This document shows positions 16,054-33,148 of a stretch of 33,554 bases of DNA, piece by piece. Under the pieces are notes generated by a model. The model had not been told where the DNA came from. It did not search any database and was given only the letters and a program-made list of their open reading frames with translations. Every line of letters begins with the position of its first letter. Position 1 is the stretch's first letter. The position numbers and the translations under genes are program-made. This stretch comes from Thermoplasmata archaeon (GTDB lineage: Archaea > Thermoplasmatota > Thermoplasmata > Lutacidiplasmatales > UBA184), in NCBI GenBank assembly GCA_021828665.1, contig JAJZDH010000004.1, positions 1-33,554 on the forward strand, in the 5' to 3' direction.

Positions 16054-16416
16054 ATGGACAGCGTCACCTTGTTCCTGGTCTTCGCGGCGGTCGCCACGGC
16101 GTTCGGGGGCGGCTCCCTCCTCGCGAACCGGATGCTCGGGGCGAAACCGCGGCGGGCCTACCTGCAGTCGATGACCTACGAGTGCGGGCAGGAAGCCGAG
16201 GGGGAGGCCCAGATCGACTTCCCGACGCAGCACTACACCTTCGCCATCGTCTTCGTGGCCGTGGACATCCTGGGGTTCCTCCTGGCCCTCTGGGGGCTGA
16301 CCTTCCGGGCGCTCGCCTCGAGCTGGGGGCCGACGGTCATCGCCTTCGCCTTCAGTGCCCTCGCGCTGGCGGGGATCTACTACGCCCTCTCGGGGGAGAA
16401 GAGGTGGGTGGTGTGA
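16054..16416 (+). CDS. nuoA: NADH-quinone oxidoreductase / F420H2-dehydrogenase-like subunit A
   Basis: Three [41 protein letters not shown]; first gene of a collinear nuo operon. Confidence 0.92.
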
Positions 16417-17009
16417 CGACGGCGAGCTCCCCGGCAGGAGTCCCCGCGGCGGCGGCCGCCACCGGGCCCGCGACCGAGCCCGCCGTGCCCTTCCTCGAGA
16501 TCGAGACGCTCCGGGCCCGGGAGTTCATCCCGGCCGCCAAGGAGGCGCTCGCCTCCCGGATCTCCGAGGAGGCGCAGGACCGGCTCCTCCGACCGGTCTT
16601 CAACTGGGCCGGCCGCAATTCCCTCTTCCCGCTGCACTGGGGCCTCGCCTGCTGCGCCATCGAGTTCGCGGCGGCGTTCGGGGCCCGGTGGGATGCCGAG
16701 CGGTTCGGCGTGGTCCCGCGCTCCTCGCCGCGGCAGTGCGACCTCCTCATCGTGAACGGGACCGTCACCTGGAAGGTCGCGCACAAGCTGATCACGCTCT
16801 ACGAGCAGATGCCCGAACCGAAGTGGGTCATCGCCATGGGCAACTGCGCCACGGGCGGCGGGCCGTTCCGGACCGCCTACTCCGTCGTCCCGGGCGTCGA
16901 CAAGCTCGTACCCGTCGATGTCTACATCGCCGGCTGCCCCCCGCGCCCCGAAGCGATGCTCGACGGCATCCTGAAGCTCGAGACCCTGATCAAGGAACGG
17001 GGGGAGTAG
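16413..17009 (+). CDS. nuoB: Complex I subunit B
   Basis: [27 protein letters not shown] cluster N2 ligand motifs; GTG start overlapping the nuoA stop by 4 nt. Confidence 0.95.
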
Positions 17010-17032: not shown

Positions 17033-17518
17033 ATGACCGGGGCAGCGTCGGGGGTCGGGCCGGACCGGCTCCTCGCCCGCTTCCCCCAGGGGATCCTCGG
17101 GATCGACCCGTTCCCGGGGACCGCCGGGCGCCTGCGGTTCGACCCGGCGATCGCCCTCGAGCTCTTCCGGGAGGTGCGGGACACGCTCGGCTACACCCAC
17201 CTCGCCATGGTGGCGGGGATCGACTGGGTCCAGACCCGGGAGGTCCTCTACGCGGTCTGGTCGGACGCCGGGCGCCGCTACCTGTTGCTCTCCGCCCAGT
17301 TGCCCGCCGACCACCCGCACATCGAGAGCGCGACCGCCGTCTGGCCCTCCGCGAACTGGCACGAGCGGGAGGCCTGGGAGCTCGTGGACATCTCCTTCGA
17401 CCACCACCCGGACCTGAGGAACCTCCTCCTGCCGACGGGGTACCAGTTCCACCCGCTCCTCCGGTCGTTCAAGCTCCACGAGCCGGAGGAATTGGAGGTG
17501 AAGGTGCGCGATGTCTGA
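17033..17518 (+). CDS. nuoC: Complex I subunit C (30 kDa-like)
   Basis: HEREAWELVDISFDHHPDLRNLLLPTGYQFHPLLRSF resembles the 30 kDa subunit signature; position between nuoB and nuoD. Confidence 0.9.
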   Translation: MTGAASGVGPDRLLARFPQGILGIDPFPGTAGRLRFDPAIALELFREVRDTLGYTHLAMVAGIDWVQTREVLYAVWSDAGRRYLLLSAQLPADHPHIESATAVWPSANWHEREAWELVDISFDHHPDLRNLLLPTGYQFHPLLRSFKLHEPEELEVKVRDV

Positions 17519-18656
17519 GATGTGGATCAACATGGGGCCCCAGCACCCCATGACGCACGGGCTGTGGAACCTCCGGGTCCGGATCGACGGCGAGCTCATC
17601 TTGGACGTGGACCCGGAGATGGGCTACCTCCACCGGGGGATCGAGAAGATCTCGGAGGATCGCCACTACAACGAGATCATCACCCTCATGGACCGCACCT
17701 GCTACGTGGCGGGGATGGCCTGGGAGACGCTCTTCGTCCTGGGGGCCGAGCAGGCGCTCCACGTGACCCCTCCGGAGCGGGCGGAATGGATCCGGGTCCT
17801 GAGCGAGGAGATCCAGCGGCTCGGCTCCCACATCATGTGGTACGCCGCGTTCGTCCAGGATCTCGGGCTCATGAGCCCGTTCCTGTACGGCATGCGGGAC
17901 CGCGACCTCCTCCTGGACCTCCTCCAGAGCTACACGGGGGCCCGGATGACGTACGAGTACAACCGGGTCGGCGGCGTGCGGAACGACCTGCCGTCGGGGT
18001 TCACCGACCGGGCCCGGAAGGTGTGCGATTGGCTCGAGGACCGGTTCCGGGAGTACGACGCGCTCTGCCTCGGCTCGGCGATCTTCCACAAGCGCTGCGA
18101 CGGCCTCGGCGTGCTCAAGGCCGCCGATTGCGTCCGGCTCGGCGTGACGGGGCCGATGCTGCGGTCGGCCGGCGTGAAGCGGGACCTGCGCAAGGACCGC
18201 CCGTACTCCGCCTACGACCGGGTCGATTTCGACGTGGCGGTGGCCGAGGGCGGCGACGTCACCGGCCGCTACCTGGTCCGGATGGAGGAGATGCGCCAGT
18301 CCGTCCGGATCGTGCGCCAGGCGCTCGACTGGCTCGACCGGAATCCGGGTCCCTGCCTCGCGGAGAACCTCCCCCGCTGGCTCGGGGCGCCGTACGCCCC
18401 CGTCGGCCGCGAAGGGTACCTCCTCCGCCGCAACTATCCGAAGGGGCTCGGCTTCTCGGCCATCGAGGAGCCCCACGGCGAGGCGCTGGCCTACGTCGTC
18501 AACGAAGGCGTCGAGCACCCGTACCGGGTGAAGCTCAAGTCGCCGATCTTCGTGAACCTCTCGGCCGCCAAAGAGTACCTCGTGGGGTACCGGGTCGCCG
18601 ACATCCCGCCGATCATGGGCAGCGTGGACATCTGCGTCGGGGAGGTGGACCGGTAG
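17511..18656 (+). CDS. nuoD: Complex I subunit D (49 kDa-like)
   Basis: NMGPQHPMTHGLWNLRV, DPEMGYLHRGIEKISEDRHYNE, C-terminal GSVDICVGEVDR. Confidence 0.96.
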   Translation: MSEMWINMGPQHPMTHGLWNLRVRIDGELILDVDPEMGYLHRGIEKISEDRHYNEIITLMDRTCYVAGMAWETLFVLGAEQALHVTPPERAEWIRVLSEEIQRLGSHIMWYAAFVQDLGLMSPFLYGMRDRDLLLDLLQSYTGARMTYEYNRVGGVRNDLPSGFTDRARKVCDWLEDRFREYDALCLGSAIFHKRCDGLGVLKAADCVRLGVTGPMLRSAGVKRDLRKDRPYSAYDRVDFDVAVAEGGDVTGRYLVRMEEMRQSVRIVRQALDWLDRNPGPCLAENLPRWLGAPYAPVGREGYLLRRNYPKGLGFSAIEEPHGEALAYVVNEGVEHPYRVKLKSPIFVNLSAAKEYLVGYRVADIPPIMGSVDICVGEVDR

Positions 18657-18662
18657 ACGCCC

Positions 18663-19793
18663 ATGACCGGCCTCACCCTCTACGGGGTCGCGAACGGCCT
18701 CATCCAATACCTCCTCACCCACCTGTACGGCGTGCTGCCCCACCCGTACTTCGCGTTCCTGGTGAACGGCGCCGTCGTCACGGGCCTGAGCGTCCTCGTG
18801 TTCGCGGCGATCCTCCTCGGCGCGAGCATGATCAACACGATCATGCTCATCTGGTTCGAACGCAAGCTCCTCGGGCGGTTCATGGACCGGCGCGGCGCGA
18901 TGCACGTGGGCTACGCCGGCCTCCTCCAGAACTTCGCCGACGGGCTCAAGCTGTTCCGCAAGCACACCTACAAGCCCCACGACGCGGACGCCCTCGGATT
19001 CTACGTGGCGCCGACCGCCTACCTCGTGAGCTCGCTGCTCATCTTCGCGATCCTGCCGGCCTCGACCGGGTGGGGCGCCGGCGCGCTCCCCCTGAGCCTG
19101 CTGCTCGCCCTGGTCGTCTTCTCGTTCGCTCCTCTGTTCATCTTCCTGAGCGCGTGGTCGCAGGCCAACAAGTACTCGCTCATCGGCGGGATGCGGTCGG
19201 CGGCCCAGATGATCGCCTACGAGGTGCCGATCCTCCTCGCCGTGGTGGCCGTCGTCATCGTGTCGGGCTCCTTCGACCTCACCACCATCGTGACGATGCA
19301 GCAGAACTACTGGTACTGGATCCCGCTCCTCCTCGCCCTCGTCGTCTTCGTCACGGGGATGCTCGCGGAGATGGAGCGGATCCCGTTCGACCTGCCCGAG
19401 GCGGAAGCGGAGCTCGTCGAGGGGTGGAACACCGAGTACGGCGGGATGCTCTTCGCCTTCTTCATGCTCTCGGACTACCTCCGGGCCCTCATCGGCAGCT
19501 TCCTCGTCGTCCTCCTCTTCTTCGGCGGCTGGACGATGCCGGGGTGGGTGCCCGGTCCGCTGACCTCCTTCCCGCTCGAAGGGCTCTTCTGGTTCCTGGT
19601 CAAGACCTACGCCGTGTTCGGGGTCTTTGTCTGGATCCGGGCCTCCCTGCCGCGGGTACGGACCGATCAGCTCCTCCGGATCGGATGGATGCGGATGGTC
19701 CCCCTCGCGCTCCTCAGCATCGTGCTCGCGGTGGGCCTCGTGCTGATCCGGTGCCTGCCGCTCCTGGGCTGCCTGCCGTCCCTCGGAGGGTGA
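18663..19793 (+). CDS. nuoH: Complex I subunit H
   Basis: FERKLLGRF..., EMERIPFDLPEAEAELVEGWNTEYGGMLFAFFMLSDYL. Confidence 0.95.
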   Translation: MTGLTLYGVANGLIQYLLTHLYGVLPHPYFAFLVNGAVVTGLSVLVFAAILLGASMINTIMLIWFERKLLGRFMDRRGAMHVGYAGLLQNFADGLKLFRKHTYKPHDADALGFYVAPTAYLVSSLLIFAILPASTGWGAGALPLSLLLALVVFSFAPLFIFLSAWSQANKYSLIGGMRSAAQMIAYEVPILLAVVAVVIVSGSFDLTTIVTMQQNYWYWIPLLLALVVFVTGMLAEMERIPFDLPEAEAELVEGWNTEYGGMLFAFFMLSDYLRALIGSFLVVLLFFGGWTMPGWVPGPLTSFPLEGLFWFLVKTYAVFGVFVWIRASLPRVRTDQLLRIGWMRMVPLALLSIVLAVGLVLIRCLPLLGCLPSLGG

Positions 19794-19804
19794 GGAGGAG
19801 GACC

Positions 19805-20581
19805 ATGAGCCCCCCGGAAACCGAGGCCGAACGGTCGAACAGCTCCGTCCTGTGGGTGGCGAAGCCGCTCGCGACCGCGGCGCGCCAGTTCGTGAAGAGC
19901 CTCTGGCGCCCCTCGACGATCGTCTATCCCTTCGAACGGCTGGAGGACCCCAAGTTCCGGACCGAGGTCCGGGTCGCCGCGGGCAAGCCGATCGGGGTCG
20001 GGGCGGTCTGGGACAACTACCGGGGGGTCCACGCCCTCAACATCGACACCTGCATCTCCTGCAACCTCTGCGCGTTCAGCTGCCCGGACCTCTGCATCGA
20101 CATGGTCACGGTCCCGGGGGGGGATCCGAAACATCCCAAGAAGTGCCCCCAGATCGACTACGGCAAGTGCAGCTACTGCGGCTTCTGCTCCGACGCCTGC
20201 CCCGAGGGCTGCTTGACCATGACCACGCGCTACGAGCTCTCGGTCACCAAGCGCGCCGAGATGGTCTATGCGCCCGAGCGGCTCCATGAGGTCTACAAGA
20301 CCAAGCTTCCCATGAGCCCGATCCGGGTGGAGCGGCCCCAGAACGAGGACTCCATCCTCCTCGATGCGCCGCTGTGCATCGGGTGCAACGCCTGCGCCCG
20401 GGACTGCCCCACCAAGTGCATCACGATGCTCGACATCCCGAAGCCCGCGGCGAAGCCCGGCGAGAAGATCCCGAAGCGGATCTGGAAGGAGCCCGTGGTC
20501 AACGATTCCGACTGCGTCCGTTGCGGCACCTGCATCTCCGTCTGTCCGAAGGAATGCCTGTTCTGGGGGACCCACCGGTGA
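19805..20581 (+). CDS. nuoI: Complex I subunit I, extended form with four [4Fe-4S] motifs
   Basis: CISCNLCAFSCP, CSYCGFCSDACP, CIGCNACARDCP, CVRCGTCISVCP; preceded by a NuoI-like N-terminus; position between nuoH and nuoJ. Confidence 0.92.
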   Translation: MSPPETEAERSNSSVLWVAKPLATAARQFVKSLWRPSTIVYPFERLEDPKFRTEVRVAAGKPIGVGAVWDNYRGVHALNIDTCISCNLCAFSCPDLCIDMVTVPGGDPKHPKKCPQIDYGKCSYCGFCSDACPEGCLTMTTRYELSVTKRAEMVYAPERLHEVYKTKLPMSPIRVERPQNEDSILLDAPLCIGCNACARDCPTKCITMLDIPKPAAKPGEKIPKRIWKEPVVNDSDCVRCGTCISVCPKECLFWGTHR

Positions 20582-21069
20582 ACCTCGTGGATATCGCGTT
20601 CCTCCTGCTCGCCGCGGCCGCCGTCGGGACCGCCCTCCTCGCGCTCCTCGTCCGCGAGCTCGTCCATACCATCCTGTGGGTCGCCGGCTTCTTCGTGGTC
20701 CTCGCGGCGCTGTACTTCCTCGCCGAGGCGACCTTCCTCGGCGTGCTGCAGCTCGGGGTCTACGCGGGGGCGGTCACCATCCTGCTGCTCTTCGGGGTGA
20801 TGGTCACCCGCCGCTCCATCTTCCGCCGGGACGCCGCCACGGGGATCGGACCCACCTCGGTGGCGCTCGCCGCGCTCGTGGTCCTCCTCCTGGGGGCCGT
20901 GGCCTGGCGGTTCGGGGGGACGGGGGCCGCCGGGGTGACCGCCTACGCCCCGGCGCAGCTCTCCCAGGCGCTCTTCGGGACCTACGGTCCCTGGCTCCTC
21001 CTGGTGGGGCTCGCCATGCTCGCGGCGCTCGCCGGGGCGATCTACCTCGTCCGGGAGGGACGCGAATGA
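20578..21069 (+). CDS. nuoJ: Complex I subunit J
   Basis: GTG start overlapping the nuoI stop; LAEATFLGVLQLGVYAGAVTILLLFGVMVT is the conserved NuoJ helix. Confidence 0.92.
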   Translation: MNLVDIAFLLLAAAAVGTALLALLVRELVHTILWVAGFFVVLAALYFLAEATFLGVLQLGVYAGAVTILLLFGVMVTRRSIFRRDAATGIGPTSVALAALVVLLLGAVAWRFGGTGAAGVTAYAPAQLSQALFGTYGPWLLLVGLAMLAALAGAIYLVREGRE

Positions 21070-21389
21070 CGGACGCGTTCACCACGGCCGGCTTCCTCGC
21101 CCTCTCGGGCGCGCTCCTCGCCCTCGGCCTCTTCGGCATCCTCACGCGCCGGAATTTCATCCTCCTCCTCGTCTCCATCGAGATCGCCGTCAATGCGGCG
21201 GTCCTCAACTTTGTCTACTTCGCGGCGTTCGCCCCCACGACGGCGGAGGCGCTGAACGGACAGTCGGCCGCCATCGTGATCGTCGCGCTCGCCGCCACCG
21301 AGATCGCCGTGGGGCTCGCCATCGTCCTCGGCCTGAACCGCCTGCGCGGATCGATCGATGTGACCGGCGCGACCGACCTGAGGCTGTAG
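21066..21389 (+). CDS. nuoK: Complex I subunit K
   Basis: ATGA overlap with nuoJ; LFGILTRRNFILLLVSIEIAVNAAVLNF and VALAATEIAVGLAIVL carry the conserved TM glutamates. Confidence 0.94.
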   Translation: MTDAFTTAGFLALSGALLALGLFGILTRRNFILLLVSIEIAVNAAVLNFVYFAAFAPTTAEALNGQSAAIVIVALAATEIAVGLAIVLGLNRLRGSIDVTGATDLRL

Positions 21390-21402: not shown

Positions 21403-23385
21403 ATGGTCGGCTGGTCGGTGCTGTTCCCGTACGCCTACCTCGTGCCGCTCCTCATGGTCGGCTCCTTCGTCGTCGTCGGCCTCGGGGGGACGCGGCTCCG
21501 TCGGTTCGCCGGGGGCGGCTGGATCGCCGTGGCCGCCGCGGGGGCCTCGATGGTCCTGGGGGTCCTCCTCGGGGTCGCCGAGATGCTCGACCCCACCTAC
21601 ACCGACACCCACGTGGTCTGGCTCTCGCTGCCCGCCACGGGGACCGGCACCTTCCCGAACGGTTTCGAGCTCGTCATGGGCACCCTCGTCGACCCGCTCT
21701 CGGGCCTCATGCTGCTCGTCGTCACCATCGTGGGATTCCTGGTCCTCGTCTACTCGCTCGGGTACATGGCCCACGAGAAGGGGCTCCCCCGGTACTTCGC
21801 CGAGCTCTCCCTCTTCCTCGCGGCGATGAACGGGCTCGTCCTCGCCGACAACCTCTTCGAGTTCTTCGTCTTCTGGGAGCTCGTCGGGGTCTGCTCGTAC
21901 TTCCTCATCGGCTTCTTCTACGAAAAGCCGAGCGCGGCGAGCGCCGCGAAGGAGGCGTTCCTGGTCACCCGGGTCGGGGACGTGATGTTCCTCCTCGGGG
22001 TCTTCCTCTACTTCTACGTCTACGCCACGAGCGGGCCGGCCGGGGGGTGGGCGGCCCACGGCTTCCTCTTCGTCCAGGGCTCCTCGCCGTTCCTCGCGGG
22101 AGTGATGGGCGGCAGCACCCCGCTCCTCACCGTGGCGGGGCTCATGATCCTGGGCGGCGCCGCCGGCAAGTCGGCGCAGTTCCCGCTCCACGTCTGGCTG
22201 CCGGACGCCATGGAGGGACCGACCACCGTGAGCGCCCTCATCCATGCCGCCACGATGGTGGCGGCGGGAGTCTACCTCCTCGCCGTCACCTCCCTCTTCC
22301 TCGGCTTCACCGCCACCGACGATCTCGCCATCGTCGCCATCGGCGGCTTCACGACCTTCTTCGCGGCCACGATGGCGCTGGTCCAGCCGGACATCAAGCG
22401 CGTCATCGCCTATTCGACGATCTCGCAGCTCGGGTATATGGTGCTCGCCGTCGGGGCCGGCTTCGCCATGGTCGGGATGTACCACCTCTTCACCCACGCG
22501 TTCTTCAAGGCGCTCCTCTTCCTGGCCGCCGGCGCCGTCATCCACGCCGTCGGGACCCAGGACCTGTTCAAGATGGGGGGTCTCCGCAGGACGATGCGGA
22601 TCACCTCGGGGGTCTTCCTGGTCGGCGCGCTCTCGCTCTCGGGGATCTTCCCGTTCGCGGGGTTCTGGAGCAAGGACGACGTCCTGAGCTCGCTCTTCGG
22701 CGAGCTCGGCAGCCACCCGCTGTACTGGCCGTTCTACCTCCTCGCCCTCGCGACGGTCTTCCTGACGGGCTACTACATCTTCCGGGTCTGGTTCCTCACC
22801 TTCTCCGGCGAGAACCCCCGGGACCGGAGCCTGCCCGCGGCCCACGAGGCGCCCGGCGTCATGCTGGTGCCGATGATCGTGCTCGCCATCTTCGCCACCG
22901 TCGGCGGCCTCTTCCCCTTCGTGCCGGCGTTCGCCCACCTGCTCCCGGGCGCCGGGATCCCGCCGAGCTACACGGCCACCGATCTGGCCCTGAGCGCCCT
23001 CTCCGTGGGCCTCGCCGCGGGCGGCATCCTCACCGCCTGGGCCTTCTGGGGGAACGGCCGGGTCTTCGAACTGCCGGCCGGGTCGGCCGCCCAACCGGTC
23101 CGGCGCCTGCTGCTGAAGCGATACTACTTCAAGGCCGGGTACGACGCCCTCGGCCTTACGGGAGTCTACACCTTCGCCCGCCTCTGCGATTTCGTGGACC
23201 GGTACATCATCGACGGGGTGGTCCACGGGCTCGAACGCTCCTTCGGGGGGCTCTCCGAGCGCGGGCGGAGGATCCAGTCCGGCGTGGTCCTCGACTACGC
23301 GAGCTACGTCGTCGCCGGCGTCGTGGTCCTGCTGCTCTTCCTCCTCGTCGTCGGCCCCTACCTCGTCGCCACCTGGGGGAGCTAG
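21403..23385 (+). CDS. nuoL: Complex I antiporter-like subunit L
   Basis: FEFFVFWELVGVCSYFLIGF, GKSAQFPLHVWLPDAMEGPTTVSALIHAATMVAAGVYLL; long C-terminal extension. Confidence 0.96.
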   Translation: MVGWSVLFPYAYLVPLLMVGSFVVVGLGGTRLRRFAGGGWIAVAAAGASMVLGVLLGVAEMLDPTYTDTHVVWLSLPATGTGTFPNGFELVMGTLVDPLSGLMLLVVTIVGFLVLVYSLGYMAHEKGLPRYFAELSLFLAAMNGLVLADNLFEFFVFWELVGVCSYFLIGFFYEKPSAASAAKEAFLVTRVGDVMFLLGVFLYFYVYATSGPAGGWAAHGFLFVQGSSPFLAGVMGGSTPLLTVAGLMILGGAAGKSAQFPLHVWLPDAMEGPTTVSALIHAATMVAAGVYLLAVTSLFLGFTATDDLAIVAIGGFTTFFAATMALVQPDIKRVIAYSTISQLGYMVLAVGAGFAMVGMYHLFTHAFFKALLFLAAGAVIHAVGTQDLFKMGGLRRTMRITSGVFLVGALSLSGIFPFAGFWSKDDVLSSLFGELGSHPLYWPFYLLALATVFLTGYYIFRVWFLTFSGENPRDRSLPAAHEAPGVMLVPMIVLAIFATVGGLFPFVPAFAHLLPGAGIPPSYTATDLALSALSVGLAAGGILTAWAFWGNGRVFELPAGSAAQPVRRLLLKRYYFKAGYDALGLTGVYTFARLCDFVDRYIIDGVVHGLERSFGGLSERGRRIQSGVVLDYASYVVAGVVVLLLFLLVVGPYLVATWGS

Positions 23386-23388
23386 GCC

Positions 23389-24858
23389 ATGGCCGTCGGG
23401 ATCATCTCCGTCGTCCTCCTCACCCTCGTTGGCGGCACGCTCCTCACCTTCGCGGCCGGCCGGTGGGCGCGGTACGTCGCCCTCGGCACGAGCCTCGTCT
23501 TCCTCTTCGAGGCCGCCTACATGCTCTCGGCGTTCGTCTGGCCGCTCCCCAACGGCGCGGGGGTGCCGCTGTACGCCTTCTCCGAGACCGCCCCCTGGGT
23601 CCACCTCTCCTGGCTCACCATCAACTACTCCGTCGGCGTCGACGGCATCAGCCTGCCGTTCGTCCTCCTCACCGCGATCCTGCAGATCGTCACCGTCGTC
23701 TACACCTTCGAGGAGGACCGCCATCCGGCGGCCTGGTTCGGTCTCGTCCTGCTCACCTGCCTCGGGTCGTTCGGCGTCTTCGTCTCCCTCGACATCCTGC
23801 AGTTCTTCCTCTTCTGGGAGGCGGTCCTCATCCCGATGTTCTTCATCATCGGGTACTGGGGCGGGGTCCGCCGCCGCTACGCGGCGCTCAAGTTCCTCCT
23901 GTACACCCACGTGGCGAGCGTGGTCATGCTCGTCTCGCTCTTCGCCGTCGCCTTCTACTCCCACGCCGCGAGCTTCGACTTTTCGGACCTGTACGGGCCG
24001 GCGCAGGGGCTCGCCACCACCACCCAGGTGGTCCTCTTCCTCGGCCTCTTCTTCGGCTTCGGGGTCAAGTTCCCCGTCGTGCCGTTCCACACCTGGCTCC
24101 CGGACGCCCACGTGGAGGCTCCGACGGGGGGCTCGGTGCTGCTCGCCGGCCTCCTCCTGAAGCTCGGGGGGTACGGGCTCATCCGCTGGGGCCTCGAACT
24201 GCTGCCGAGCGGGCTCGAGCATGCGGCGCCGCTCCTGTACGCCGTGGCCTTCGCCTCCATCCTGTGGGGCGCCTTCATGTCCCTCGCCCAGAGGGACCTC
24301 AAGAAGCTTGTGGCCTACTCGTCGATCAACCACATGGGCATCGTGCTCCTCGCCATCGCCGTCTACTCGAGCCTGGGGGTCATGGCCGCGGTCCTGCTCA
24401 TGTTCGCCCACGGGATCGTGAGCGCGCTCCTGTTCATGGTCTCGGGCAGCGTCCACGACAGTTTCGGGAGCCGGGACATCGTCTCGGTGAACGGCATCAC
24501 CGCCCGGACCCCGGTCCTCGCCACCATGATCATGATCGGGGCGCTCGCGTCCCTCGGCCTGCCGGCGCTGGTGAGCTTCCCCGCCGAGTTCTCGGCGTTC
24601 CTCGCCACGTGGGACCGGCTCGGGTACTTCGTCCTGCTGCCGCTCCTCGGCCTCGTGATCACGGCGGCGTTCTACCTCTGGATGATGCAGCGGCTCCTGT
24701 TCGGGCCGGCCCGGAATCTCCCCGAGCGGGCGCACGACCTGCCGGCCCACGAGGCGATCGCCATGGGACTCCTCGTGGCGCTCATCGTCCTGTACGGGAT
24801 CCTGCCGAGCCTGCTGACGAACATCATCGTCGCCTCGCCCATCCACCTCCTGCCGTAG
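23389..24858 (+). CDS. nuoM: Complex I antiporter-like subunit M
   Basis: FFLFWEAVLIPMFFIIGYWGG, VKFPVVPFHTWLPDAHVEAPTGGSVLLAGLLLKLGGYGLIR. Confidence 0.96.
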   Translation: MAVGIISVVLLTLVGGTLLTFAAGRWARYVALGTSLVFLFEAAYMLSAFVWPLPNGAGVPLYAFSETAPWVHLSWLTINYSVGVDGISLPFVLLTAILQIVTVVYTFEEDRHPAAWFGLVLLTCLGSFGVFVSLDILQFFLFWEAVLIPMFFIIGYWGGVRRRYAALKFLLYTHVASVVMLVSLFAVAFYSHAASFDFSDLYGPAQGLATTTQVVLFLGLFFGFGVKFPVVPFHTWLPDAHVEAPTGGSVLLAGLLLKLGGYGLIRWGLELLPSGLEHAAPLLYAVAFASILWGAFMSLAQRDLKKLVAYSSINHMGIVLLAIAVYSSLGVMAAVLLMFAHGIVSALLFMVSGSVHDSFGSRDIVSVNGITARTPVLATMIMIGALASLGLPALVSFPAEFSAFLATWDRLGYFVLLPLLGLVITAAFYLWMMQRLLFGPARNLPERAHDLPAHEAIAMGLLVALIVLYGILPSLLTNIIVASPIHLLP

Positions 24859-24870
24859 GGAAGCGGAGAG

Positions 24871-26430
24871 ATGATCGATACGGAAGTGCTGGGACAGTTC
24901 GCACCGGAAATCCTTCTGCTCGCCGGCACCCTCCTCCTCTTCGTCCTCGACCGGGCCGGGGCCCTCCGCCGGGAGCTGTTCGGGGCGGTGGCGCTCGCGG
25001 CGATCCTGGGGGCCGGGGCGATCGTGCTCGCGGACCTCGGCGTGGGATTCCTCGCGCCGCTCCGGGGGATCGGGGCCGCCGTGGTCGACCAGCCGGTGGG
25101 CGCGAGCGCGCTCTACGGCTTTTCGAGCCTCGGCCTCCTCTTCCAGGGGATCTTCCTCCTCGCCGCCTTCCTGGTGGCGCTCGCGGCCGTGTCCCGTCCC
25201 TCCGACGAGCCCGGGGCGGCCGTCTTCTACGGGCTCCTGCTCCTCGCCACCCTCGGGATGATGCTCGTGGCGGTGGCCGCGGACCTCATCTTCCTCCTCC
25301 TCGCGCTCGAGATCACCGCGATCGCGAGCTACCTCCTGGTCGCCTCCCCGCGGCGGGACCCCCGGGCGCTCGAGGCCGCCATGAAGTTCTACATCATCGG
25401 GGCGCTCTCGGCCGCCCTCTCCTTCTTCGGCGCCTCGCTGCTGTACGGGGCCTACGGCACCACGAGCCTCCGGGTCGTCGGCCACTCGCTGCCCGCCGGG
25501 GCGTACGGGGACCTCGCCATCGCCGGGTTCGGATTCCTCCTCGCCGGGCTCGCCTTCGAGGTCACCCTCGTGCCGTTCCACATGTGGGCGGTGGACGTGT
25601 ACGACGGCGCGCCCACGGAGGTCTCGGCCTTCCTCGCGGGGGGGACGAAGAAGGCCGGGTTCTTCGCCCTCTTCCTGGTCTTCGTCGGGCCGCTCCTCCT
25701 CGTCCTGGCCCCCGGCACCGGCCCGGCCGGCACCTTCCGGGGCTCCCTCGACCTCACGGTGGCGCTCCTCGCCGTGGCCACGATGACCGTGGGCAACGTC
25801 CTCGCCCTCTTCCAGAGCGAGATGAAACGGCTCCTCGCCTATTCGTCGATCTCGCAGGCCGGCTACATGCTCCTCGGGGTCGCCGTGGCGACCGCCCCGG
25901 CGCTCGCCGGGGCGACCTTCCAGATCTTCGCCCACGTCCTCCTCAAGGCGGGCGCCTTCCTGGTCGTGGCCGCCGCCGCGGGGCTCGGGGTGGGTCCCCT
26001 CGTGAGCGACTGGAAGGGGTTCGGGATCCGGCGGCCGGCGCTCGGGGTCGCGTTCGGCCTCTTCCTTCTGGGACTCGCGGGCATCCCGCTCACCGTGGGG
26101 TTCTTCTCGAAGTTCGTCCTCTTCTCCGCCGTCGTCGAGGCGCGGGGATGGTTCGTCTGGCTGGCGGTCGCCGGGGTCCTCAACAGCGCGCTCTCGGTCT
26201 TCTACTACGGCCGGATCCTCCGGACGATGTACATGGAGACCCCGCCGGCCGGATCGGGCGGCGCCGGGGTCGGGGCCCGGTCGTCGCTGGCGTGGGACGG
26301 CCTCGGCTACGGACGGGCCGCCGCCATCGGGATCGCCGCGGTCCTCGTCGTGGCGCTGGGGATCGACCCGGGGCCGCTCCTGACGGCGTTCCAGTCGGCG
26401 GCGACCCACTTCCTCACCTTCGGCGCGTGA
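24871..26430 (+). CDS. nuoN: Complex I antiporter-like subunit N
   Basis: LALEITAIASYLLVA, FEVTLVPFHMWAVDVYDGAPTEVSAFLAGGTKKAGFF; last nuo gene. Confidence 0.95.
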   Translation: MIDTEVLGQFAPEILLLAGTLLLFVLDRAGALRRELFGAVALAAILGAGAIVLADLGVGFLAPLRGIGAAVVDQPVGASALYGFSSLGLLFQGIFLLAAFLVALAAVSRPSDEPGAAVFYGLLLLATLGMMLVAVAADLIFLLLALEITAIASYLLVASPRRDPRALEAAMKFYIIGALSAALSFFGASLLYGAYGTTSLRVVGHSLPAGAYGDLAIAGFGFLLAGLAFEVTLVPFHMWAVDVYDGAPTEVSAFLAGGTKKAGFFALFLVFVGPLLLVLAPGTGPAGTFRGSLDLTVALLAVATMTVGNVLALFQSEMKRLLAYSSISQAGYMLLGVAVATAPALAGATFQIFAHVLLKAGAFLVVAAAAGLGVGPLVSDWKGFGIRRPALGVAFGLFLLGLAGIPLTVGFFSKFVLFSAVVEARGWFVWLAVAGVLNSALSVFYYGRILRTMYMETPPAGSGGAGVGARSSLAWDGLGYGRAAAIGIAAVLVVALGIDPGPLLTAFQSAATHFLTFGA

Positions 26431-26437
26431 CGGCCCC

Positions 26438-27541
26438 GTGGAGCGGTACGACGTCGTCGTGGTGGGGGCCGGGCCGGGCGGGAGCACCGCCGCCCGCTTC
26501 AGCGCCGAGGGAGGGGCCCGGACGCTCCTCCTCGACCAGCGGCCCGAGATCGGGTATCCGGTGCAGTGCGGGGAGTTCCTCCCCACCCCCGAGGAGCTCG
26601 GCGACCTCTTCCCGTGCCGGGCCGAGATCGCGGAATCGTTCCGGATCCCGCCGGAGTCGGTCGCGCGGACCACCTCCGAGATGGTCTGCGTCGCCCCGTC
26701 CGGACGCCGGTACCGGTTCCCGCTCCACGGCTTCACGGTCTCCCGCCGGGCGTTCGACAGCGGCCTCGCCCGGGCCGCGGAAGCGGCCGGAGCGGAGCTC
26801 CGGCACCCGTGCGGGGTCACCGGGGTCCACGACCACCGGATCCGCCTCGCCGGCGGCGCGGAGATCTCGGCCGACGTGATCATCGGAGCCGACGGCCCCC
26901 TCTCCACCGTGGCCCGGGCGTTCGGGTTCCGCCCGGAGCGGGAGCTCTACCGCATGATCACCGCGACGGCCCCGGGGGATCTCACCGAGGCGATCGAGCT
27001 CTACTTCGGGCGGGTCGCCCCCGGCGGGTATGCCTGGGTCTTCCCCAAGGACGGGGCGGCGAACGTGGGTCTCGGCGTGGCCCGGATCCCCCGCGGGACC
27101 ACCCTCGCCGCGCTCCTCGGCCGCTTCCTCCGGAGCGCCGGGTACCCCCCGCCGACGGACCCGACCCGCTGGTGGGTGCCGCTCGGGCCCCCGCCCGAGA
27201 GCGCCGTCCGGGGGCCGGCGCTCTTCGTGGGGGATGCCGCCAACCTGGTCATGGCCACGAACGGGGGCGGCATCCCCACCGCCATCCTCTCCGGCCGCGA
27301 CGCCGGGGTGGCCGCCGCCCGGCATCTCCGGGAGGGAACGCCGCTCGCGGAATACGACCGGCTCTGGAAGGCCCATCTCGAGGCCCCGCTGCGGCGGGCC
27401 TGGGCGATCAAGCGGTTCGGCGACCGGGTCGCCGGCCGGGACTGGCTGTTGGGCCCGGGGATGTACTATATCGGTGCGAGCGGCCTCGACGCCATGATGC
27501 GCCTGCGGTGGCCCGGGCGCCTTCGATGGTGGAACTCATGA
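26438..27541 (+). CDS. Geranylgeranyl reductase family FAD-dependent oxidoreductase
   Basis: GTG start; Rossmann VVVVGAGPGGSTAA; PVQCGEFLP; FVGDAANLVMATNGGGIPTAILSG. Starts 7 bp after the nuoN stop. Confidence 0.92.
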   Translation: MERYDVVVVGAGPGGSTAARFSAEGGARTLLLDQRPEIGYPVQCGEFLPTPEELGDLFPCRAEIAESFRIPPESVARTTSEMVCVAPSGRRYRFPLHGFTVSRRAFDSGLARAAEAAGAELRHPCGVTGVHDHRIRLAGGAEISADVIIGADGPLSTVARAFGFRPERELYRMITATAPGDLTEAIELYFGRVAPGGYAWVFPKDGAANVGLGVARIPRGTTLAALLGRFLRSAGYPPPTDPTRWWVPLGPPPESAVRGPALFVGDAANLVMATNGGGIPTAILSGRDAGVAAARHLREGTPLAEYDRLWKAHLEAPLRRAWAIKRFGDRVAGRDWLLGPGMYYIGASGLDAMMRLRWPGRLRWWNS

Positions 27542-30027: not shown

Positions 30028-32049
30028 ATGGCGGAGCGCCCGACCGTCGCCCAGCAGCTCGCGGCCAAGCAACGGGAGATTTCCGTCGCCGAGTTCTTCG
30101 AGAGGAACCGCCAGATCCTCGGATTCGACAATCCGCTCCGCGCGCTCCTCACCACCGTCAAGGAGGGGGTGGACAACGCCCTCGACGCCTGCGAGGAGGC
30201 GGGGATCCTGCCGGAGATCTCGGTCGAGATCGCCCGCGAAGGGACCGAACGGCTCCGGGTCGCCGTCGACGACAACGGACCGGGGATCCTGCGCCGGCAG
30301 ATCCCGAACGTCTTCGCCCGGCTGCTGTACGGCTCCCGGTTCCATGCCAACCGGCAGTCCCGCGGCCAGCAGGGCATCGGGATCTCCGCCGCCGTGCTGT
30401 ACGCGGCGCTCACCACGGCCCGGCCGGCCCGGATCGTCTCCAAGGTCGCCGAGGAGGAGGCTGCCCAGGTCGTGGAGCTCCTCATCGACACCCAGAGGAA
30501 CCTCCCGCGCGTCATCTCCGAGGACCTCCTCCTCTGGGACCGCCCCCACGGGACCCGGGTCGAGCTCCTCCTCAAGGCGAAGTACCAGCGGGGGCGCCAG
30601 TCCCCGTTCGAGTACCTCAAGGACACCGCCATCGTCAACCCGCACGCCCGGATCGTCCTGGTCGAGCCGGACGGCACCCGGGTCACCTGGGAGCGGGCCG
30701 CCCCCACCGCGCCCCCCATCCCGAAGGAGGTCCTGCCGCACCCCTACGGGCTGGAACTCGGGGAGCTCGCCTCCCGCCTGAAGGCCACGGCCCGGCCGAC
30801 GGTCGCGGAGGTCCTCGCCCGGGAGTTCGCCGGCGTCACCCCGCGGGCGCTCCGGGAGGTGCTCGGCCGGGCCGGGCTCTCCGGCAAGGAGAAGCCGGAC
30901 TCGATCCACGGGGAGTTGCTCGAAACGCTCCTCGAGGCGCTCCGCACGGTCCCGCTCCTGCCCCCCAGCGCCGAATCGCTCTCCCCCATCGGCCCGCTGC
31001 TCATCAAGCGGGGGCTGCGGAACGTCCTCGGGGAGATCCGCCCGGATTTCTTCGCCCCCCCCGTCAGCCGGCCGCCGAAGGTCCGTGGCGGGTTCCCGTT
31101 CCTGGTCGAGGTCGGTCTCGTGTACGGCGGCGAACTGCCTCCGGACCAGCCGGTCCAGCTCCTCCGCTTCGCGAACCGGGTCCCGCTGCTCTTCCAGCAG
31201 GGCGCCTGCGCCGTGACGAACGCCGTGGCGAACCTGGACTGGAGGCGGTACGGCCTCGAGCAGAAGGGCGGTTCGGGCCTCCCCTCGGGCCCCTGCCTCA
31301 TCCTGGTCCACGTGGCCTCCACCAAGATCCCGTTCACCAGCGAGGCCAAGGAGGCGATCGCCGAGGACCCGGAGATCGACAAGGAGATCACCCTCGCGCT
31401 CCAGGCGGCGGCGCGCCATCTGCGGCTCCACCTCTCCCGCCGTTCCCGCCGGGAGCAGGCGAGCGAGAAGTTCGACGTGATCCTGCGGATCCTGCCCCGG
31501 CTCGCCGAGAAGACGAGCGCGCTCGTGGGGAAGCCCGTTCCCGACCTGACCCCGGTGATCACCCGGATCATGGACGTGGTGTACGTGAACCCCTCGGTCG
31601 TGGCCGCGGCGAAGGGCGGATCCACCACGACGGTCCGGGTGGAGATCGTCAACTACACGCCGCGGGCGCGGGTGCTCGAGCTGTTCCTCGAGATGCCGCC
31701 CGCCGCCTTCCCGCCGGACCCGGTCTCCCGGTCGCCGGACGGCTCGGAGCCGGAACTCGGACGGATGTGGTGGACCCTCCCGAAGCTCCTCCCGTCGGCG
31801 CGGGCGGAGATCGCCCTCACCTTCCCCCGGTCGAGCGAGATCGACGCGGACGAGGTCGACTTCTACGAGGCCGGGGTCGACGAGGCGCACCTGCTCGGGG
31901 CCGACCCGCTGCCGGGCGACTGGGAGGTCCGCGTGCCCCGGGCCGTCATCGAGGCCGCGGAGGAGGCGGCCGCGGCGGCGCCCCCGGGCGAGGAGACGGA
32001 GGTGGATTACGATGGCGCGAAGAGCGAAGGAGCCCTCGACGAAGAGTGA
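30028..32049 (+). CDS. top6B: DNA topoisomerase VI subunit B
   Basis: GHKL motifs [57 protein letters not shown]-terminal transducer domain. Confidence 0.97.
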
Positions 32050-33148
32050 GGAGTCGGCGGAGTCGGTCTCGGCCCGGGCGCTCCGCCCGACGCTCGACCT
32101 CGCCGAGCAGGTCTACGACCAGCTCGCCCACGGGGAGATTCCCCGGATGCGGCTGCCGCTGCGGACGAAGCAGAACATCGCCTTCCAGATGCGCGAGGGG
32201 GTCTGGAAGCTCGGGCGCGCGCTGGGGACCCGGAGCGCCCGGAAGAAGGACGGGGCGCTGATGCTCCTGCGGACCTTCTACCTCGTCGATTTCATCGGGG
32301 AGATGGCGCGGGCCGGGAAGACGTCGACGCTCCGGGAGCTGTACTACATCAGCGAGGGGTGGGAGGAGGGGAAGTTCCACAGCGAGGACGAGTCGAACCT
32401 GCTCATCGAGGACCTCGAGGTCCTCTGCACCCGGCTCCGGGAGGATTTCCGGCTGCATCCGGAGGAGAACGGCGCCTCCGTCATCGGGGACCTCACCCTG
32501 AGGGAGCGCAACCGCAAGGGGATCGCCAAGAAGATCAACTGCCGGGACGACGTGGGGGACGGCGGCTACGCGCTGCCGTTCAACGTGGAGCGCGAGAAGA
32601 TCGAACTCCTGAGCACCGGCGCGAAGTTCATCATCGCCATCGAGTGCGGCGGCATGGTCGACCGGCTCGCGGAGAACGGGTTCGACGAGCAGCACGACGC
32701 GCTCCTGGTCCACCTGAAGGGACAGCCGGCCCGGTCGACGCGCCGCTTCCTCAAGCGGCTCAACGAGGAGATGAAGCTGCCCGTGGTGGTCTTCACCGAC
32801 GGCGACCCCTGGTCGTTCCGGATCTTCGCCTCGGTGGCCTACGGGGCGATCAAGACGGCCCATCTCTCCCAGTACCTGGCGACCCCCTCCGCGGAGTTCC
32901 TGGGGGTGACCCCCTCCGACATCGAGAACTACGACCTCCCGTCGGACAAGCTCAGCGACGTGGACATCCGGGCGCTGCAGGCGGAGCTCACGGATCCCCG
33001 GTTCCAGACCGCCGAGTGGCGGGCCGAGATCGAGCTCATGCTGAAGAACGGGAAGAAGGCGGAGCAGCAGTCGCTCGCGAAGTACGGGCTCAACTACGTG
33101 ACCGAGAAATACCTGCCCGAGAAGCTCACCGAGATGGGGATCCTCTAG
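32012..33148 (+). CDS. top6A: DNA topoisomerase VI subunit A
   Basis: Spo11-like [11 protein letters not shown] (catalytic Tyr context), Toprim [11 protein letters not shown]...[11 protein letters not shown]. Confidence 0.97.

Follow-up and report, generated by a model that had tools for sequence, protein, structure and literature searches.

The window analysed here, a stretch of 33,554 nucleotides from a Thermoplasmata archaeon of the Lutacidiplasmatales (assembly GCA_021828665.1, contig JAJZDH010000004.1), carries a complete complex I operon of 11 subunits in the order nuoA-B-C-D-H-I-J-K-L-M-N, in which nuoI, located between nuoH and nuoJ, encodes a protein with four [4Fe-4S] cluster motifs. 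An earlier note, made from the letters alone, had claimed that this NuoI carries four motifs instead of two, and the claim was borne out by an intact open reading frame, a motif scan and profile matches. The gene is an uninterrupted frame of 258 amino acids, with GGAGG-like stretches 5' of its ATG at 19805 and a TGA stop at 20579-20581, and it is organised as follows:

19805..20581, + strand: nuoI, four [4Fe-4S] motifs, 258 amino acids (open reading frame, profile match, motif scan)
20051..20086, + strand: cluster motif 1, canonical (Cys83-86-89-93, Pro94), invariant in the 18-row alignment A1
20168..20203, + strand: cluster motif 2, canonical (Cys122-125-128-132, Pro133) (motif scan, alignment)
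20255..20362, + strand: linker between the dicluster domains, residues 151-186, the fastest-changing part (median dN/dS 0.287, amino acid identity 0.67)
20375..20410, + strand: cluster motif 3, extra (Cys191-194-197-201, Pro202) (profile match, alignment, dN/dS)
20429..20494, + strand: loop joining clusters 3 and 4 (residues 209-230), with Lys/Arg residues, a putative docking surface
20513..20548, + strand: cluster motif 4, extra (Cys237-240-243-247, Pro248) (profile match, alignment, dN/dS)

The CxxCxxCxxxCP motif occurs four times, with first cysteines at Cys83, Cys122, Cys191 and Cys237. When the residues of the protein were shuffled, a single motif arose in 69 of 100,000 permutations and two or more in none, and two motifs were never reached when the last 95 residues were shuffled alone. 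The N-terminal part matched the NuoI/FpoI family model TIGR01971 with 118.5 bits, above the cut-off of 113.05, and contains the canonical domain with its two motifs (Cys83-93 and Cys122-132) and the conserved RG and P-T-YP motifs upstream. Residues 191-250 matched Fer4_7, a 2[4Fe-4S] dicluster domain that is covered by none of the solved NuoI chains among the PDB matches. Solved NuoI examples have two motifs, a number that is not itself a criterion of TIGR01971, and since the deviation concerns only the number of domains, we regard this protein as a variant of the family and not as a non-member.

Conservation of the added domain was extensive. All four motifs were found in 106 of the 107 NuoI copies of the window family, the exception (L093) having an ambiguous base within the last motif; their spacing was identical in 94 of these 106 copies, and all 16 cysteines were retained in each of the 77 aligned family copies. 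Furthermore, the 16 cysteines and the four prolines that follow them were invariant in alignment A1 (18 sequences from 13 families), nearly all of which are encoded in the same kind of nuo/fpo operon. Against the window copy, the median ratio of non-synonymous to synonymous substitution (dN/dS) was 0.095 in the canonical dicluster and 0.111 in the added one, compared with 0.242 in the N-terminal part and 0.287 in the linker; on these values, purifying selection constrains the added dicluster about as much as the canonical one. Moreover, the C-terminal domains resembled one another more closely (normalised similarity 0.43) than they resembled the N-terminal domains (0.32), which argues that the C-terminal domain is old and vertically inherited rather than re-made. 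The source is a fragmented metagenome-assembled genome of 176 contigs, in which a frameshift or misassembly might join nuoI to a separate ferredoxin gene, an objection raised in the earlier note; yet independent genomes, with a single frame and near-identical motif spacing in about 106 family copies and 12 other families, refute such an assembly or annotation artefact, which we consider practically dismissed.

Class- and phylum-wide searches, together with the operons retrieved, placed this form far beyond the window genome (families are labelled with f-numbers and loci with L-numbers). Within a nuo operon, four-motif NuoI was found in the window family (f1) and in f8, f11, f16, f20, f22, f24, f29, f30, f32, f33, f36 and f52; it was also present in f23, f25 and f28, with nuoB-nuoI apart from the remaining nuo genes, and f26 and f4 have variants in which one motif is degenerate or went unrecognised. 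Six-motif proteins, some motifs of which are degenerate, occurred in f5 and f21, and two-motif NuoI was found in f19, f27, f31, f34, f45, f53, f59, f60 and f37, as well as in Mbh-like loci. The methanogens of this class are the Methanomassiliicoccales, and for this reason we take the families bearing both mcrA and four-cluster NuoI (f8, f22, f29, f30, f32 and f33) to belong to that order; f19, judging from gene content among other traits, probably represents the Thermoplasmatales. A novelty peculiar to the window genome or family is ruled out by the at least 12 further families whose nuo/fpo operons carry four-motif NuoI, so the idea of a clade-specific form did not hold, and four-cluster NuoI appears to be common to most lineages of the phylum that have this pump.

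Several other architectures were recorded among these loci. The six-motif proteins have three dicluster domains (L126:5741-6658, - strand; L130:6092-6949, + strand; L185-L187), the middle one having partly lost its cysteines in several copies (CTGKEQCAKVC, CTSHGKCAEAC). In f23, f25 and f28 (L131, L182, L183, L184; L225, L226, L227), nuoB and four-cluster nuoI stand together, far from a nuoACDHJKLMMN cluster that includes two NuoM-like genes. Family f3, of the window's order, has nuoB-C-D-I at a locus without nuoH/J-N (L117:9249-9797, + strand; L199), and the two-cluster NuoI of f37 (L167:3853-5673, + strand) ends in a long tail rich in K, P, E and A instead of a second dicluster. By eye, a protein of 632 amino acids in f42 (L165:1864-3759, + strand) joins a NuoI-like dicluster to a GltD-like FAD/NAD(P)H oxidoreductase, apparently another route to build a donor module into NuoI.

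The history of the extension was examined with a tree of NuoB, NuoD and NuoH (42 rows) and an earlier quick tree. In the former, extended complexes and a single two-cluster row (L167) formed a group with support of 99/97, and six-motif rows were in both trees a single group with full support, nested inside the extended complexes. Constraining all extended rows to one clade was not rejected by the approximately unbiased (AU) test (p-AU 0.555), the constrained tree being 0.8 log units better; a single gain with later expansion is therefore compatible with the data, and the pattern would fit one origin of the extension, a subsequent six-motif expansion and at least one loss.

The operon consists of nuoABCDHIJKLMN and, as the earlier note had also observed, has no nuoE, nuoF or nuoG. 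Its remaining genes, and the gene directly behind it, are:

16054..16416, + strand: nuoA (operon order, homology to other nuo operons)
16413..17009, + strand: nuoB, GTG start overlapping the nuoA stop, N2-type cysteines (CCAIEF...GNCATG...GCPPRP)
17033..17518, + strand: nuoC, start set at the ATG at 17033 (PF00329)
17511..18656, + strand: nuoD, GPQHPMTHG quinone-site-type motif (PF00346, 281.6 bits)
18663..19793, + strand: nuoH (PF00146)
20578..21069, + strand: nuoJ, GTG start overlapping the nuoI stop
21066..21389, + strand: nuoK (conserved order)
21403..23385, + strand: nuoL (conserved order)
23389..24858, + strand: nuoM (conserved order)
24871..26430, + strand: nuoN (conserved order)
26438..27541, + strand: geranylgeranyl-reductase-family flavoprotein, directly 3' of nuoN (PF22578)

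The flavoprotein may act in lipid or quinone side-chain reduction. Further 3' of the operon, genes resembling the B and A subunits of topoisomerase VI, assigned by eye from their translations, adjoin each other at 30028-33148. The CxxC pair of [NiFe] hydrogenases, sought as a sign of Group 4 enzymes, was absent from the N- and C-terminal parts of NuoD that were read. A second complex-I-like locus was seen in the same genome (L216:7243-12284, - strand; G000 contig C86), encoding a protein of 315 amino acids in which a NuoB domain is joined to a ferredoxin domain with two clusters, a NuoC/D-like protein whose parts read show no CxxC nickel ligands, and NuoL-like proteins; it looks like a hydrogenase-related complex devoid of the NiFe site.

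The window genome (1.62 Mb, 97.8% complete) was further searched for electron-donating partners. Neither the NuoF-type PF01512 nor the FpoF-type PF04432 had a match in it or in 12 other genomes of its family, positive controls being matched in both cases. PF04432 was absent from all 21 genomes of this search, and the complex is thus not classed as an F420H2 dehydrogenase (Fpo/Fqo). Likewise, the NuoEFG module through which NADH enters (N-module) is missing from the operon and PF01512 from these 13 genomes (for NuoE and NuoG the absence refers to the operon), so that the composition is that of the 11-subunit complex, NuoABCDHIJKLMN, and not of the 14-subunit enzyme. On the other hand, the genome encodes two POR_N proteins (2-oxoacid:ferredoxin oxidoreductase) and two archaeal ferredoxins of about 92 amino acids with charges of -7 and -6; the C-terminal dicluster of NuoI has a charge of +3. 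Since NuoF and FpoF are lacking and POR_N genes and ferredoxins are present, ferredoxin is the likely donor.

Electrons in complex I reach N2, in NuoB, by way of the two NuoI clusters, and because the NuoI clusters feed N2, an outward extension is the most economical reading of two further clusters. A second 2[4Fe-4S] ferredoxin-type domain, fused behind the canonical pair, would lengthen the wire outward; 2-oxoacid:ferredoxin oxidoreductases would reduce soluble ferredoxin, which would then dock at the added domain, and electrons would run from clusters 4/3 through N6a/N6b and N2 to quinone, driving proton pumping. We infer that all clusters are occupied, that they lie in this spatial order and that ferredoxin is the direct donor. 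On balance, we find it probable that the added domain extends the wire and is where reduced, soluble ferredoxin docks and hands over its electrons in this complex I without an N-module.

Several observations weigh against this outward wire. The AlphaFold2 model built from 37 family rows reached only a pLDDT of 42 and a pTM of 0.25 and was not used for geometry, and the net charge of the loop between clusters 3 and 4 is weak, being +1 to +2 in the window family and 0 in several other families. Two-cluster NuoI occurs without NuoF or FpoF in four of five f19 genomes, in f27 and in f31, and a PF01512 or PF04432 gene is present elsewhere in certain genomes with four-cluster NuoI. In addition, the NuoI of f3 (L117) has two clusters and ends at the start of the linker, as though it had lost the added domain, and that of f37 (L167) has only two clusters, yet groups with the four-cluster clade, which may reflect a loss or an early branch. 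Since two-cluster relatives mostly lack NuoF and FpoF too, a complex of this kind can operate without both the extension and an NADH module, and the extension more likely refines donor docking than makes N-module-less operation possible. Consequently, the proposal of the earlier note that a built-in ferredoxin wire acts as the electron entry site stands in part: the extra pair is built in and functional-looking, the genome has ferredoxins and enzymes that reduce them but neither an NADH nor an F420H2 module, and four-cluster subunits recur in the presumed Methanomassiliicoccales, whose Fpo-like complex reportedly oxidises ferredoxin; a role as replacement of the missing NADH module was, however, too strong a claim, given that Thermoplasmatales-type complexes with two clusters mostly do without NuoF and FpoF.

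That complexes with two-cluster NuoI evidently function in this phylum although they lack the extension also favours a different port, in which ferredoxin reduces the canonical clusters directly and the added domain docks or exchanges electrons with a non-ferredoxin partner (HdrD-like or flavin-containing), or forms a branch point for two donors; indeed, 11-subunit enzymes have been proposed as docking platforms for several donors (PMC11238625). Nevertheless, the nuo operons examined did not share any constant partner gene, and the partner would need to be common to aerobic heterotrophs and methanogens, which leaves this option possible though unlikely. It is improbable that the added clusters lie off the electron path as a redox buffer or structural stabiliser. 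No structure places them on the path, and the cysteine losses in the middle diclusters of six-motif forms (CTGKEQCAKVC, CTSHGKCAEAC) indicate that an extra dicluster can decay while the complex is kept; in the four-cluster proteins, by contrast, the cysteines never vary in the 18-row and 77-row alignments, and selection is about as strong as on the canonical domain. Finally, the PF01512 gene found on another contig in some four-cluster genomes of other families could suggest that NADH still enters by way of a NuoEF-like or NADH:ferredoxin reductase module that is encoded far from the operon and docks on the added domain, but the lack of any PF01512 match in the window genome and 12 others of its family, with positive controls matched, makes this very improbable.

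Photosynthetic NDH-1 is a complex I that also lacks the N-module and takes electrons from ferredoxin at NdhI, its NuoI homologue, and NdhI chains were among the best PDB matches of the NuoI analysed here. NDH-1 differs in that NdhI has two clusters and no second dicluster domain, and in that the complex uses extra subunits of the NdhS type. The C-terminal domain also matched the 2[4Fe-4S] repeats of the polyferredoxins MvhB and FwdF and of PsaC, which are separate subunits of other enzymes, whereas the repeat described here is fused to the NuoI of a proton pump. The archaeal-type complex I of Thermoplasmatales has the same 11 subunits, NuoABCDHIJKLMN, and no NuoEFG (PMC3750248), but in f19, the probable Thermoplasmatales family, NuoI has two clusters only. 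Another close counterpart, the Fpo-like complex of Methanomassiliicoccales, is reported to oxidise ferredoxin in PMC7886697 and PMC7485788 (both citing Kroninger et al.) and of PMC4153887; it shares the operon order and the lack of FpoF/FpoO, and the mcrA-bearing families tested have four-cluster FpoI. The acceptor side differs: methanogens are thought to couple to HdrD, while Lutacidiplasmatales are described as acidic-soil heterotrophs, for the most part aerobic, that have complex IV, a haem-copper oxidase (PMC9287336). The terms NADH, nuo, F420 and ferredoxin do not occur in the text of that 2022 paper. The nearest matches bearing a name came from Thermoplasmata metagenome-assembled genomes, Candidatus Lutacidiplasma silvani among them.

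Archaeal complex I of 11 subunits without NuoEFG (PMC3750248) and ferredoxin feeding in relatives were known already, and sequences of this kind have been public for years. The earlier note had reckoned with a four-motif NuoI being both common and described; common it is across the phylum, but no published description of a four- or six-motif NuoI/FpoI was found in the open-access papers searched that mention FpoI, NuoI or Fpo-like complexes. We tentatively suggest, as a view about as open to doubt as to acceptance, that these proteins mark an undescribed, phylum-wide class of archaeal complex I, in which NuoI became a modular polyferredoxin (two, then four, then six motifs) carrying the whole entry wire, so that an ancient two-cluster pump turned into a dedicated ferredoxin:quinone oxidoreductase. 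Which donor supplies electrons to complex I without an N-module has long been asked (PMC11238625), and a second ferredoxin domain within NuoI itself, retained with the complex in methanogens as well as in aerobic soil archaea, would offer a concrete and testable entry site. In brief, the forms with two, four and six motifs, the last in two families, may provide a natural series in which to study the growth of the entry arm of complex I.
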